Source: Saccharopolyspora galaxeae
GTDB lineage: Bacteria > Actinomycetota > Actinomycetes > Mycobacteriales > Pseudonocardiaceae
Direction: 5' to 3'
NCBI RefSeq assembly: GCF_016526145.1
Contig: NZ_JADDUE010000007.1
Location: 62,001 to 126,000, forward strand
Length of the DNA: 64,000 bases
Below the pieces are notes generated by a model. That model made no database searches. It was not told the origin of the DNA and worked only from the letters and a program-made list of their open reading frames with translations. Position numbers and translations under genes: made by a program. Position 1 is the first letter of the stretch, and each line of letters opens with the position of its first letter. Positions 21,116 to 52,446 of this stretch are shown here, one piece after another.

Positions 21116-21688
21116 TCAGCCCTCCAGCGGAAGGCCGCGGCCGAGGACCGCGAACGGTCGTGGGTCGCCGGTGAACCGGTAGTGCCGCAGCAGGTCGGCG
21201 AATCCGACGCGGCGGTACAAGGTCCAGGCCCGCGTCGGACCTTCCGGGGTGGACAGCAGCACCGCCCGGCCGGGCGCGCCGTCCAGCAGCCGCCGCAGGA
21301 TCGTTTCGCCGAGGCCGCCGCCCTGGCTGTCCGGGCGCACGTGCAGCTCGGTGAGCTCGAAGTAGTCGTGCATCCAGTGCTCGGCCTCGGCCTGCGAGTG
21401 GGTGCTGAGCATGCCGCGGAAGACCTGCTCGTGCCACCACTGGCCGGGCACGCCGAGATAGCCGTAGCCGATGCCGATCAGCTCGTCCGCGGTGTTGAAC
21501 GCCCCGATGCAGCGCCATCCCGCGCGCAGCATGTGCGCCGACCACATGGGAGCGCGTTGCTGCGCGGTCAGCGGCGGGTAGTTCATCGCCTCCACGTACA
21601 CCTGCAGGGCTTCGGCCAGGCGGGCTCTGAGCTCGTCGGTGGTGAGCTCGACGAGGCGGTCGAAGCGGGGGGCGGGCGCGGCTGTCAC
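21116..21688 (-). CDS. GNAT family N-acetyltransferase (Rv2170-like position)
   Basis: A 190-residue acetyltransferase. The acetyl-CoA pyrophosphate-binding loop is visible as SQGGGLGETIL following strand LTELHV, and the C-terminal LYRRVGF strand is typical. The N-terminal helix ELTTDELRARLAEALQVYVEAMNY matches actinobacterial homologues beside lppM, such as Rv2170. The acceptor is not evident from sequence; I infer a protein or small amine. The GTG at 21688 follows TAGTGT by 7 nt (minus strand), so the transcript is probably leaderless. Confidence 0.8.
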   Translation of the reverse strand: MTAAPAPRFDRLVELTTDELRARLAEALQVYVEAMNYPPLTAQQRAPMWSAHMLRAGWRCIGAFNTADELIGIGYGYLGVPGQWWHEQVFRGMLSTHSQAEAEHWMHDYFELTELHVRPDSQGGGLGETILRRLLDGAPGRAVLLSTPEGPTRAWTLYRRVGFADLLRHYRFTGDPRPFAVLGRGLPLEG

Positions 21689-21695
21689 GAGCTGA

Positions 21696-21701
21696 ACACT
21701 A
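21696..21701 (-). promoter_or_regulatory. Leaderless -10 element of the GNAT gene
   Basis: On the minus strand TAGTGT lies 7 nt before the GTG start at 21688. Confidence 0.5.
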
Positions 21702-21816
21702 GAGGGTGCGGCAAGGGGCCGTGCGTCCCGGCCTTGATCAATTCCGCTGCCGGTGTCGGCGCTGGTGATCGCATCGGAGCGGGCATTACTCGAACAGGTG
21801 ATCTATTGCTCAAGTG

Positions 21817-21845
21817 TTGAGTCCGGGCTCCGATCGGTCTACTCT
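21817..21845 (+). promoter_or_regulatory. Promoter of the HEPN operon
   Basis: TTGAGT (21817-21822) and TACTCT (21840-21845) are spaced by 17 nt. Transcription would start at about 21852. Confidence 0.6.
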
Positions 21846-21853
21846 GGAGCTTG

Positions 21854-21869
21854 TCGAACTGAGGTTCGA
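21854..21869 (+). promoter_or_regulatory. Perfect LexA (SOS) box
   Basis: TCGAACTGAGGTTCGA matches the actinobacterial consensus TCGAAC-N4-GTTCGA at all 12 defined positions. It overlaps the predicted transcription start, where bound LexA would block initiation. Confidence 0.75.
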
Positions 21870-22118
21870 TCGCCCGAGTGGAGTGCTCGAGTTCGATCGC
21901 TCGAGTTTCGATCGCTCTGTCGGTGGCTTGTCATCGCTTGTCGATCTGCCATCGATCGGCTGTCGATCCAGTGCGGTCGACTTCGGTTCGCACGCACGTC
22001 CGGCGGTGGGGTGGGGGAAGCACCCCGCCGCCGGACGACCGGCTTCCCCCCGGTTCGAGCACCTGACCGGCAACTCCGCGGATTCGCGGAGCCCGTCGTG
22101 ACCGAGAGGAGAAAGCTG

Positions 22119-22592
22119 ATGTCCCTGCCGGTGTCCATTCCCGTCCCGCGCAGCCCGGGCGACGGATCGCCCGTATCGCCAGGATCGTCCGGACCGGCCG
22201 GTCCGCCACCGCCGCCGGGGGCGGCGTCCCTGCTGGAGCAGGGGCGGGCTTGCCTGCGCGATGCCGAACAATCGGCGAAACCGGCCGACCGCTACGTGTT
22301 GGCGCACCTCGCCGCGTTGCGGGCCGCGACGGCGGTGCTGGTTTCCCGCTCCTGGCGCCGAACCCGGGGCAGACCCTGCCGCGGGCGGTCGGGCGGCGTG
22401 TGGAGCCAGCTCACCGAAGTCGCACCGGAACTGCGCGAATGGTCGGCGCACTTCGCGGACCGATCGGTCCGGCGCGCCGCGGCCGAGGCCGGTAGCCCGG
22501 GCGTGACGCCGGGGGAGGCGGACATCTCGTTGCGGCACGCGGGCGAGTTCGTCGCGGTGGTTCAGCGCAGCCTGTCGGGGTCGGTGCGATGA
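22119..22592 (+). CDS. SAV_6107-type HEPN domain protein
   Basis: A 157-residue protein. After a proline-rich 35-residue tail, a four-helix HEPN-like domain begins at SLLEQGRACLRDAE. It contains R58-YVLA-H63, which fits the RX4-6H active-site motif of HEPN ribonucleases. Family members of the SAV_6107 type are common in actinobacteria but uncharacterised. The ATG at 22119 has GAGAGGA 8 nt upstream; a GTG at 22098 is possible. Its stop overlaps the next ATG. The gene lies downstream of a perfect LexA box, so I infer DNA-damage induction. Basic stretches around residues 80-95 (RSWRRTRGRPCRGRSG) could bind nucleic acid. Confidence 0.75.
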   Translation: MSLPVSIPVPRSPGDGSPVSPGSSGPAGPPPPPGAASLLEQGRACLRDAEQSAKPADRYVLAHLAALRAATAVLVSRSWRRTRGRPCRGRSGGVWSQLTEVAPELREWSAHFADRSVRRAAAEAGSPGVTPGEADISLRHAGEFVAVVQRSLSGSVR

Positions 22593-23398
22593 GCCGGAGC
22601 GTTCCCGAGGAACCCGAATCGGGCTGCGCGGCGCCTCCGGAGCTGTCCATCGACCACGGCCGGATGCTCGACCTGATCGGCGTCGAGGGGCAGTTGCTCA
22701 CCGCCGCCACGCACGACGTGCACCCGGACGCTCCGGTCGGCGGGGCGTCCGGCCGCACCGCCACCGAAACCGTCCGCTACCTCAGCGGGGTCTGCGAGGA
22801 CGCGCTGACCTGGATGGGCGCCGCCGAGCAGGCGCGTTCCGCGGCGGTTCCGGAGCCGGCGACGCTGCGGGCGGTGACCCGGCAATGCACTGCCCGGCTG
22901 GCCGAACTGCTCGCCGAGTTCGGCACCCGCGCGCCGGACGAGGCGTGCCCGACGTGGTGGCCGGAGGAGCACACCGTGCGGTTCTGGGTCCGCAGGCTGC
23001 TGCACGCCGCAACGGTGCACCGGGTGGACGTGCAGACAGCGGCCGCGGTGGAGATGACCCCGATCGACGCCGATGTCGCGCTGGACGGGATCGACGAGGT
23101 GCTGCGGTTGTGGCTGGGCTATCGCCTGCACGCCGTCGGCATCACCTCGACCAGACCCTGCTCGGTCGGCCTGTCCACGGCCGGGGCGGAGTGGCTGGTG
23201 TACGCCGATCAGCGGCGCACCGTCGTGCGGCGGACCACCGACGGCAAGTCGGTCTCCGCCGACGGGCTGGTCACCGGTGACCCGGCGGCGGTGTACCTCT
23301 GGTTGTGGGGTCGGCTGCCGGACCGCGCGGTGCGGACGGCCGGTGATCGGGACGCCATCGCCCAGCTCTGGGGACTGCTCCGGCTCGCGACTCGTTGA
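22589..23398 (+). CDS. Mycothiol-dependent maleylpyruvate isomerase-fold protein
   Basis: A 269-residue protein with an N-terminal DinB/MDMPI four-helix bundle and a C-terminal MDMPI domain (VYLWLWGRL near the end). In true enzymes a His-Glu-His metal site is carried by HLxxVH and HExAVHRWD segments. Here the first helix reads RYLSGVCEDAL and the second LLHAATVHRVD, so at least the first His and the Glu are replaced; only the last His remains. It may therefore be a thiol- or ligand-binding relative rather than an isomerase. Its ATG overlaps the HEPN stop (ATGA), so the two are co-translated and presumably share LexA control. Confidence 0.75.
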   Translation: MSRSVPEEPESGCAAPPELSIDHGRMLDLIGVEGQLLTAATHDVHPDAPVGGASGRTATETVRYLSGVCEDALTWMGAAEQARSAAVPEPATLRAVTRQCTARLAELLAEFGTRAPDEACPTWWPEEHTVRFWVRRLLHAATVHRVDVQTAAAVEMTPIDADVALDGIDEVLRLWLGYRLHAVGITSTRPCSVGLSTAGAEWLVYADQRRTVVRRTTDGKSVSADGLVTGDPAAVYLWLWGRLPDRAVRTAGDRDAIAQLWGLLRLATR

Positions 23399-30041: not shown

Positions 30042-30057
30042 TCGAACATCCGTTCGT
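30042..30057 (+). promoter_or_regulatory. LexA (SOS) box of recA
   Basis: TCGAACATCCGTTCGT matches TCGAAC-N4-GTTCGA at 11 of 12 positions and lies directly ahead of the -10. Confidence 0.8.
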
Positions 30058-30214: not shown

Positions 30215-32359
30215 ATGGCATCGACACCGGACAAGGGCCAGGACAAGGGCAAGGCGCTCGAACTCGCCCTGGCCCAGATCGACAAGCAGTACGGCAAGGG
30301 ATCGGTGATGCGGCTCGGCGAGGAGTCGCGGGCACCGGTCGAGGTCATCCCGACCGGATCCATCTCGCTAGACGTGGCACTGGGTATCGGCGGTCTGCCG
30401 CGTGGGCGCATCGTCGAGGTCTACGGCCCGGAGAGCAGCGGTAAGACCTCGGTCGCGCTGCACGCGGTGGCGGGCGCCCAGCAACTCGGCGGCACCGCGG
30501 CGTTCATCGATGCCGAGCACGCGCTGGATCCCGAGTACGCCAAGGCGATCGGCGTGGACACCGACGCGCTGCTGGTGGCCCAGCCGGACACCGGGGAGCA
30601 GGCGCTGGAGATCGCGGACATGCTGATCCGCTCCGGCGCGCTGGACTGCATCGTCATCGACTCGGTCGCCGCGCTGGTGCCGCGCGCCGAGATCGAGGGC
30701 GAAATGGGCGACAGCCACGTCGGCCTGCAGGCCCGCCTGATGAGCCAGGCCCTGCGCAAGCTCACCTCGGCCCTCTACAACGCCAAGACCACCGCCATCT
30801 TCATCAACCAGCTCCGCGAAAAAGTCGGCGTCATGTTCGGCTGCATGCACTATTCGACGCGCGTGACGCTGGCGGACGGGTCGCAGGAGAAGATCGGCAA
30901 GATCGTCAACCAGCGGCTCGACGTCGAGGTGCTCTCCTACGACCCGGAGAAGAACCAGGTCGTGCCGCGCCGGATCGTGAACTGGTTCGACAACGGGCCG
31001 ACGGACGAATTCCTCCAGTTCACGGTGGAGCGCTCCGGCGGCAACGGTCGTTCCCAGTTCGCCGCGACCGCGAATCACCTGATCCGCACCCCCGGCGGAT
31101 GGCGCGAGGCGGGCGAACTGATCGCGGGCGACCGCGTGCTGACCTCCGAAGAACACTTGCTCAGCGATCAGCAGCTGCAGATGGTGCTCGGTGCGGTGAT
31201 GGGTGATGGCAACCTCTCGCCGAACCGCAGGGACCGCAACGGCGTGCGGTTCCGCATGGGCCACGGCGCAGCGCAGGCGGCCTACCTGGACTGGAAGGCC
31301 GAGCTACTGGGCAACGTCGGGCACAGCCGGACCGAAGATTCCCGGGGCGCCGCGTTCGCCGACTTCCGCCCGCTTCCGGAGCTGCGCGAACTGCACGAGG
31401 CGGTGTACTTCGGCGATGGCAAGAAGCACCTGTCCTGGGACTACCTCAAGGCATTGACCCCGCTGGCCCTGGCGGTCTGGTACATGGACGACGGCTGCTT
31501 CACGCTCCGTTCCAAGGGAGTGCAACAGCGCACCCAGGGTGGCAGTGGCCGTGCCGAGATCTGCGTCGAGGCGATGAGCCCGGGCAGCCGCGAGCGGCTG
31601 GTCGCGTACCTGCACGACACGTACGGCTTGAACGTGAAGCTGACCAGCCGCGGCCAGCGCCGGATCGCGGTGTTGCAGTTCTCCACGGCGGCCACCGCCG
31701 AGTTCCAGGAGCTGATCGCGCCGTACGTGCACCCGTCCATGCAGTACAAGCTGCTGCCGCGCTACCAGGGCAAGTTCTCGGTGACGCCGCAGTTCGGCGA
31801 GCCCGAGCAGCGGCTGGTCCCGTCCCGGGTGCTCGACGTCCACGTCAAACCGCAGACGCGGAGCACGCATCGGTTCGACATCGAGGTCGAGGGCAACCAC
31901 AACTACTTCGTCGACGGCGTCATGGTGCACAACTCGCCGGAGACCACGACCGGTGGCAAGGCGTTGAAGTTCTACTCGTCGGTGCGGTTGGACGTGCGGC
32001 GGATCGAGACGTTGAAGGACGGTTCGGACGCGGTGGGCAACCGGACGCGGGTGAAGGTGGTGAAGAACAAGACCGCGCCGCCGTTCAAGCAGGCCGAGTT
32101 CGACATCATTTACGGCGTCGGGATCAGCCGGGAGGGCTCGCTGATCGACATGGGCGTGGAGCAGGGCATCATCCGCAAGTCCGGTGCCTGGTACACCTAC
32201 GAAGGCGATCAGCTCGGCCAGGGCAAGGAGAACGCCCGCAAGTTCATGCGGGACAACCCGGACGTGGCCAACGAGATCGAGAAGCGGATCAAGGAGAAGC
32301 TGGGCATCGGGGCCAAGGTGGACGAGGAAGAAGGCGACCCCGCTCCCGTCGAGTTCTGA
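30215..32359 (+). CDS. recA: RecA recombinase precursor containing an intein
   Basis: The 714-residue precursor splices to a RecA of about 350 residues. RecA forms filaments on single-stranded DNA, drives strand exchange and triggers LexA self-cleavage. The N-terminal extein (1-209) contains Walker [10 protein letters not shown] (71-79) and ends at the conserved GVMFG; the C-terminal extein resumes with SPETTTGG, the L2 loop that binds DNA. The intein (residues 210-573) interrupts these two. The ATG at 30215 is chosen because [16 protein letters not shown] aligns with other actinobacterial RecA proteins. A LexA box precedes the gene; recX follows after 11 bp. Confidence 0.96.
30842..31933 (+). 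mobile_element. RecA intein with LAGLIDADG homing endonuclease
   Basis: A 364-residue intein inserted between GVMFG and SPETTT, the site used by the Mycobacterium leprae RecA intein and not the one in M. tuberculosis. Splicing residues are complete: Cys1 (CMHYSTRV), block [12 protein letters not shown], terminal VHN, and Ser as first C-extein residue. The two LAGLIDADG helices read [10 protein letters not shown] and [10 protein letters not shown], with their catalytic aspartates intact, so the endonuclease may still be active. Base composition is close to the host, indicating long residence or a similar donor. It maps to the DNA-binding L2 loop, so unspliced RecA should be inactive. Confidence 0.95.
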
Positions 32360-52430: not shown

Positions 52431-52446
52431 TCAAACACCTGTTCGA
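52431..52446 (-). promoter_or_regulatory. LexA (SOS) box of lexA
   Basis: Plus-strand TCAAACACCTGTTCGA matches the TCGAAC-N4-GTTCGA consensus at 11 of 12 positions, suited to autoregulation of lexA. Confidence 0.75.

Follow-up and report, generated by a model that had tools for sequence, protein, structure and literature searches.

HEPN_SAV_6107 as a candidate LexA-controlled SOS gene with a structured leader and a probable accessory role in mutagenic repair

Introduction

Two DnaE2-based systems of actinobacteria, DnaE2A-ImuA-ImuB and DnaE2B-[ImuB-C], are distinguished in the available part of PMC12926913. The ImuA'-ImuB-DnaE2 mutasome is of the DnaE2A type; how it is composed and how it operates are both described as elusive in the abstract of PMC10421592. 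The DnaE2B systems, exemplified by Arthrobacter and Tessaracoccus in PMC12926913, resemble loci described below in placing a small gene and a second DnaE under one LexA box; the small gene of our loci is DUF6504, probably the standalone ImuB-C. Here we compare with these systems a gene of the HEPN_SAV_6107 family located behind a perfect LexA box in Saccharopolyspora galaxeae, within a stretch of 64,000 nucleotides (nt) of contig NZ_JADDUE010000007.1 (positions 62,001 to 126,000), which is called the window throughout. On balance, we favour the explanation that HEPN_SAV_6107 is an overlooked SOS gene, controlled by LexA, preceded by a structured leader and acting as an accessory of mutagenic repair.

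The protein family itself was described as the HEPN-M group SAV_6107 (PF18726), whose table row in the available part of PMC3710099 states no association. The window protein has the HEPN fold and scores above the curated cut-off of the group, and its gene carries an SOS link, which is new for this group as far as we searched. The open-licence literature on translesion synthesis and the SOS response contained no mention of HEPN among the matches listed, and in the accessible text of PMC2701414, which contains both LexA and HEPN, the LexA passages are unrelated to the HEPN_SAV_6107 gene. A possible parallel is cg2381 of Corynebacterium glutamicum, a conserved hypothetical gene of the LexA regulon that rises on ciprofloxacin (PMC5055667, available part) and is LexA-controlled, as we propose for the HEPN gene. 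It provided the only direct evidence of induction that we came across. PF18726 does occur in C. glutamicum, but cg2381 could not be tied to it.

A perfect LexA box ahead of the HEPN gene

The core of the locus consists of the following features, numbered from the first letter of the window:

21817..21845, plus strand: promoter TTGAGT-N17-TACTCT, directed into the HEPN gene (read from the sequence; same layout in related loci)
21854..21869, no strand assigned: LexA box TCGAACTGAGGTTCGA, a 12/12 match to TCGAACN4GTTCGA that covers the expected start site
22119..22592, plus strand: HEPN_SAV_6107 protein, 157 amino acids (PF18726, 92.5 bits, cut-off 27.2; HEPN fold by model)

Both the promoter and the full consensus match had been claimed in an earlier note made from the sequence alone, and both are present. 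The promoter -10 begins 14 nt upstream of the box, and the ATG of the HEPN gene lies 249 nt past the end of the box, so that the leader described in the earlier note exists but measures 249 nt from box to ATG instead of about 265 nt. The same note had ranked this box above those of recA and lexA. This is correct, because the recA box at 30042 (173 nt upstream of the ATG at 30215) and the lexA-region boxes at 52431, 52495 and 52511 carry one mismatch each. The recA gene (30215-32359, 714 amino acids) has by eye an apparent intein within the RecA sequence.

Nine LexA-like sites with up to two mismatches were found in the window, against 2.73 expected. The whole genome (6.40 megabases) contains 35 sites with up to one mismatch, compared to 14 for a reversed control pattern, and only two of its LexA boxes are perfect: one at the HEPN operon and the other at imuA'-imuB-dnaE2. 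The second perfect box (C11:781664; L331 1094-1180, G000:C11) has a one-mismatch box 71 nt upstream and is followed by imuA' (NF058630, 200 bits), imuB (PF00817, 51.6 bits) and, in the same mutasome operon, dnaE2 (PRK05672, 1509 bits, cut-off 939).

Conservation of the box and promoter

The box was compared across several sets of loci. The Pseudonocardiaceae set comprised 40 loci, one per genus among the matches listed (Saccharopolyspora and genus g12 lie outside it), and the second set drew 40 loci from the top-scoring matches listed for 29 other families, with one or two loci per family, and so lacks families that match weakly. An earlier set of 36 loci combined six from the genus of the window with the 30 best Pseudonocardiaceae matches, and a named set held the best 80 of 262 confirmed loci from a pattern scan. 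All 40 Pseudonocardiaceae loci have a LexA box with up to one mismatch upstream of HEPN, which is perfect in 37. In the 29 other families the box is perfect at 31 loci, has one mismatch at six and was not found at three, of which two are Streptomyces-like; the corresponding numbers for the named loci are 56, 17 and seven, and three of the latter seven (L265, L280 and L281) have less than 600 nt of upstream sequence. Perfect boxes were found in 34 of the 36 earlier loci, one of which (L051) ends too soon to be judged. The earlier note had named absence of the box from close relatives as grounds for giving up its proposal; the box is present in relatives, with the exception of one locus (L037) discussed below.

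The N4 spacer of the box changes freely among orthologous loci while the half-sites are kept, and therefore selection acts on the half-sites. A chance box arising from the TCGA-rich leader was therefore rejected, since orthologous boxes retain both half-sites despite the changing spacer. The promoter is similarly widespread: among the 77 box-bearing loci of the two 40-locus sets, 51 have both -35 and -10 in the window layout toward HEPN and 64 have the -10, whereas shuffled sequences show this layout at 0.13%. None of the 77 has such a promoter directed away from HEPN.

The orientation of the promoters bears on the divergent gene that flanks the operon on its outside:

21116..21688, minus strand: GNAT acetyltransferase gene (profile search)

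The box and the start of this gene (21688) are 166 nt apart, and one alternative is that the box serves a divergent GNAT or YbaK gene and that its place before HEPN is incidental. With 51 of 77 promoters pointing into the HEPN side and none away from it, we rejected the assignment of the box to the divergent gene; the box also persists at loci such as L145, L147 and L157, whose upstream regions gave neither GNAT nor YbaK, and this explanation is extremely unlikely. The HEPN gene thus has the sequence mark of a LexA-regulon member, a promoter box of the form TCGAACN4GTTCGA kept in orthologues. LexA control of the operon is strongly supported by comparison, and both binding of LexA and induction by damage would be expected from it.

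A conserved hairpin in the leader

Two hairpins were identified between the box and the start codon:

21998..22036, plus strand: leader hairpin 1, a stem of 16 base pairs with the 7-nt loop GGGGAAG (22014-22020) (covariation, covariance model)
22038..22054, plus strand: leader hairpin 2, a stem of 5 base pairs with the loop CTTCCCC (22043-22049) (by eye)

The earlier note saw the leader and missed the conserved hairpin 1. GGGGAAG is present between box and start codon in 36 of the 40 Pseudonocardiaceae loci and in 12 of the 37 other box-bearing loci, and it falls in the first 300 nt of the leader in 48 of 77, compared to 2.2 by shuffling. The loop of hairpin 2 is complementary to that of hairpin 1, and from their sequences the two loops could form a kissing pair. 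A complementary CTTCCCC loop after hairpin 1 was found in a minority of leaders (30 of 97, against 0.84 by shuffling).

Because alignment A2 was selected by the loop GGGGAAG, invariance of the loop in it is by construction, which does not apply to the stem. Among 49 sequences, pairing of the stem was observed in 77.8% of cells (61.4% after shuffling), double changes numbered 141 (54 shuffled), and the covariation score was 0.442 (0.187 shuffled, and up to 0.279 when slid); none of 500 shuffles reached any of these three values. The count of pairs in which both partners change (15, with 12.9 after shuffling) is not exceptional, as 53 of 500 shuffles reached it. Among 32 new cores taken from the named loci, 10 or more of the 12 pairs form in 94%, compared to 6.7% with a shuffled 3' arm, and the mean number of pairs is 11.0, against 8.9 with arms swapped between loci. 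The covariance model found the hairpin in 151 of 200 Pseudonocardiaceae genomes (five with two matches, the others with one), a set that includes most of the Pseudonocardiaceae genomes that supplied training sequences. Matches on the reverse strand score far lower, and the element is therefore strand-specific.

Rfam gave no match at the gathering score in window positions 21600-22700 (best score 24.8 bits, gathering score 50) and none in 14 whole loci. The open-licence literature pairing LexA with leader-RNA terms likewise yielded nothing. A hairpin of this type ahead of imuA'-imuB-dnaE2 is not supported, with weak matches only (L190, 19.8 bits, E 0.52, inside a dnaE2 locus). By eye, a different long leader hairpin with a loop like CUCGACCC is present at L170, L175, L141, L145, L157, L159, L164, L275, L311 and L327.

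The HEPN_SAV_6107 protein

PF18726 is present as a single copy in this genome and was found in 271 of 297 Pseudonocardiaceae genomes and in 197 of 296 genomes of the class. The structural model of the window protein matches solved HEPN domains, and sequence searches returned no solved homologues for either this protein or its MDMPI-fold partner. HEPN ribonucleases have a conserved RX4-6H motif ahead of the last helix. The residues R58 and H63, which the earlier note had read as an RX4H motif, exist as written, but in the model they stand at the start of helix 2 and not ahead of the last helix. Residue 63 is His in 50 and Tyr in 29 of 81 HEPN sequences, and no column other than 63 reaches 30% His among 61 HEPN sequences. 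R119 is nearer the expected place and is well conserved (71 of 81 and 61 of 61 sequences) with no conserved His after it, so the motif expected of HEPN ribonucleases is absent. In the available part of the 2013 HEPN survey (PMC3710099), the SAV_6107 group is entered as 'No' for a conserved motif. On these grounds R58/H63 was rejected as a catalytic motif, and the proposal of a ribonuclease, which was based on it, is weak.

The same observations count against a toxin-antitoxin-like pair, in which HEPN would be a damage-induced RNase that arrests growth and is restrained by the MDMPI-fold partner. Furthermore, no single partner gene is common to all lineages and MDMPI remains in genomes without a HEPN match, so that we consider this pair very unlikely.

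The MDMPI-fold partner

In the window, the HEPN gene is followed by the second gene of the operon:

22589..23398, plus strand: MDMPI-fold protein, 269 amino acids (PF07398), overlapping HEPN by ATGA

The ATGA overlap agrees with the earlier note. The HEPN-MDMPI synteny is found in 38 of the 40 Pseudonocardiaceae loci, so the two-protein module proposed there is real in this family, but other lineages differ and it is a local arrangement only. The remaining two loci, of Pseudonocardia type, have a small gene before HEPN and no MDMPI. This small gene has weak similarity to DUF6504 (27% identity, E 0.04, a single comparison), no Pfam match, and no PF20114 match in genome G009.

The partner belongs to the MDMPI/mycothiol S-transferase/DinB-YfiT superfamily. 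It matches PF07398 with 31.1 bits (cut-off 29.5) and TIGR03083 with 25.6 bits, below the cut-off of 50, and its model has the two-domain MDMPI fold over the full length, whereas the N-terminal Pfam domain of the superfamily gave no match. We take the metal triad of MDMPI to be His, Glu and His at the presumed positions, of which H52 is supported by the title of 2nsg. The corresponding residues in the window protein are Y64, A140 and H144, compared to H/E/H in 32 of 39 Pseudonocardiaceae sequences, H/A/H in three other genera and H/D/H in one. In the Saccharopolyspora-rich alignment A5 (29 sequences), 11 have H/A/H. At the position of the presumed metal-site Glu, the window protein and 12 of the other 28 A5 sequences have Ala. 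The window copy is without two of the three presumed metal ligands and thus lacks the triad of a mycothiol-dependent MDMPI, and the suggestion of a thiol-binding partner in the earlier note is weak for this copy.

These residues are also relevant to a proposal that the operon detoxifies DNA-damaging electrophiles, with MDMPI serving either to transfer thiols or, like ClbS, to hydrolyse a genotoxin, and HEPN as its helper. The proposal is unlikely given the Y/A/H of the window, the H/A/H or H/D/H of the other genera and A5 sequences, and the confinement of the partner to Pseudonocardiaceae within the data examined.

Association with error-prone polymerase genes

Outside Pseudonocardiaceae the HEPN gene has other neighbors. 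Architectures were labelled by tblastn with few marker proteins, and the label ImuBC denotes similarity to one of three small-gene markers, two of which are DUF6504 by Pfam. A second DnaE is present downstream in the HEPN operon at 23 of the 40 loci from other families: 18 have a DUF6504-like gene before HEPN, four are HEPN-imuA'-imuB-dnaE2 and one is HEPN-DnaE2-DinB. Six further loci have DinB without DnaE2, and no polymerase gene was found at the remaining 11. Among the 80 named loci, DnaE2 is present in 23, DinB in nine more and MDMPI in 28, and 15 are HEPN-imuA'-imuB-dnaE2 loci from Micromonospora, Dactylosporangium, Paractinoplanes, Pilimelia and relatives. In the HEPN operons ImuA' was named by NF058630 (178 bits) and ImuB by PF00817. 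Each of ten genomes searched has two DnaE proteins, and the operon copy, found in five genomes, is the lower-scoring one and not of the replicative type. An operon shared with dnaE2, as expected of a mutasome component, is therefore present in several lineages and not in the window itself.

Compared with the described systems, HEPN is the first gene of an operon of the DnaE2A type at the four and 15 loci above, with a LexA box ahead wherever one was found, and the word HEPN is absent from the main text of PMC12926913 in its available form. In contrast, the window HEPN gene is separate from the mutasome operon. In the DnaE2B-[ImuB-C] arrangement, HEPN lies between the DUF6504 gene and DnaE at the 18 loci, a position unmentioned in the accessible section of PMC12926913.

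Loci and genomes that depart from the pattern

Several observations weigh against an SOS gene tied to mutagenic repair. The Pseudonocardiaceae locus L037, which has enough upstream sequence, shows no box at up to two mismatches, and the Streptomyces-type loci L158, L174, L307 and L326 retain HEPN with no good LexA box. None of the Pseudonocardiaceae loci examined has a polymerase gene next to HEPN. Mycobacteria possess the ImuA'-ImuB-DnaE2 mutasome (PMC10421592, available part), yet genus g47, which by inference is Mycobacterium, has no genome among the PF18726 matches and 17 listed without one. The word HEPN likewise does not occur in the main text of the LexA paper on S. venezuelae. Finally, seven Pseudonocardiaceae genomes without a PF18726 match (L235-L241) keep the box (five perfect, two with one mismatch), the hairpin and MDMPI, and six hairpin matches are located away from HEPN. 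Two side observations concern these groups: HEPN adjoins a methyltransferase and DUF3040 at the four Streptomyces-type loci, and other genera of the family of g47 do have PF18726 matches.

The persistence of box, hairpin and MDMPI in the seven genomes indicates that HEPN is dispensable there, as if it had been lost from the operon. Of the six matches elsewhere, one has a one-mismatch box and hairpin ahead of a NUDIX gene (L247; PF00293, 77.7 bits), L242 and L245 have the same combination ahead of unknown open reading frames, and L243 and L244 carry a two-mismatch box with the hairpin. L246 has a perfect box and GGGGAAG, but its loop is within an open reading frame and may be due to chance. Since the box and hairpin occur at other genes, the two together can function much like a regulatory cassette.

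This raises the idea that the LexA box and RNA hairpin are the conserved unit, an SOS-induced structured RNA or a leader module serving several genes, of which HEPN is just the commonest passenger. The seven genomes, the NUDIX locus and the four other loci with one or two mismatches speak for it, as does maintenance of the long stem while its sequence changes. On the other hand, 25 of the 37 box-bearing loci from other families keep box and HEPN without the GGGGAAG loop, and all 102 hairpin matches compared are upstream of HEPN. That comparison took up 102 of 110 matches, with most rows lacking a HEPN coordinate left out and six excluded beforehand as located elsewhere (G031:C38, G037:C33, G085:C3, G127:C36, G139:C3 and G168:C2), and consequently the complete agreement (102 of 102) cannot be taken as a measure of specificity. 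Examination of 16 left-out places revealed three next to HEPN, seven with MDMPI without HEPN and six at other genes. Overall, we regard the passenger explanation as improbable, and LexA-controlled HEPN as an accessory of mutagenic repair is preferred.

Proposed mechanism and significance

Under the preferred explanation, LexA bound to the perfect box over the transcription start would shut the operon off, and DNA damage would release it through RecA-driven cleavage of LexA. The transcript would open with a structured leader, comprising the long GGGGAAG hairpin and in some lineages a second hairpin with a complementary loop, which probably adjusts the stability or translation of the SOS message. 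For the HEPN protein, the likeliest role is that of a helical adaptor which lacks nuclease activity and works with error-prone translesion synthesis, because its gene shares an operon with dnaE2, imuA'-imuB-dnaE2 or dinB in many actinobacteria. In Pseudonocardiaceae, HEPN would act from its own SOS operon with the MDMPI-fold partner, while in the genome of the window imuA'-imuB-dnaE2 stands behind the only other perfect box. The sequences directly show the conserved box, the direction of the promoter, the layout and synteny of the operons, covariation in the hairpin and, as predictions, the protein folds; from these we infer LexA binding, induction, the adaptor role, the mutagenesis link and the roles of leader and partner. 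A stronger version, which we put forward tentatively, is that HEPN_SAV_6107 is an accessory subunit of mutagenic translesion synthesis that has so far gone undescribed, and that the LexA-controlled leader contains a new structured RNA element, with a kissing partner in some cases, which gates SOS output after transcription.

Interest in the mutasome centres on the mutations that it causes after damage. In many actinobacterial families the HEPN gene is found in the same operon and behind a near-perfect LexA box, yet it was not found in Mycobacterium-like genomes, where the mutasome is studied, and is easily overlooked. With a conserved structured RNA placed immediately after LexA promoters, the SOS response would gain a post-transcriptional layer, and a HEPN gene behind a conserved damage switch suggests that part of the damage response has been overlooked.
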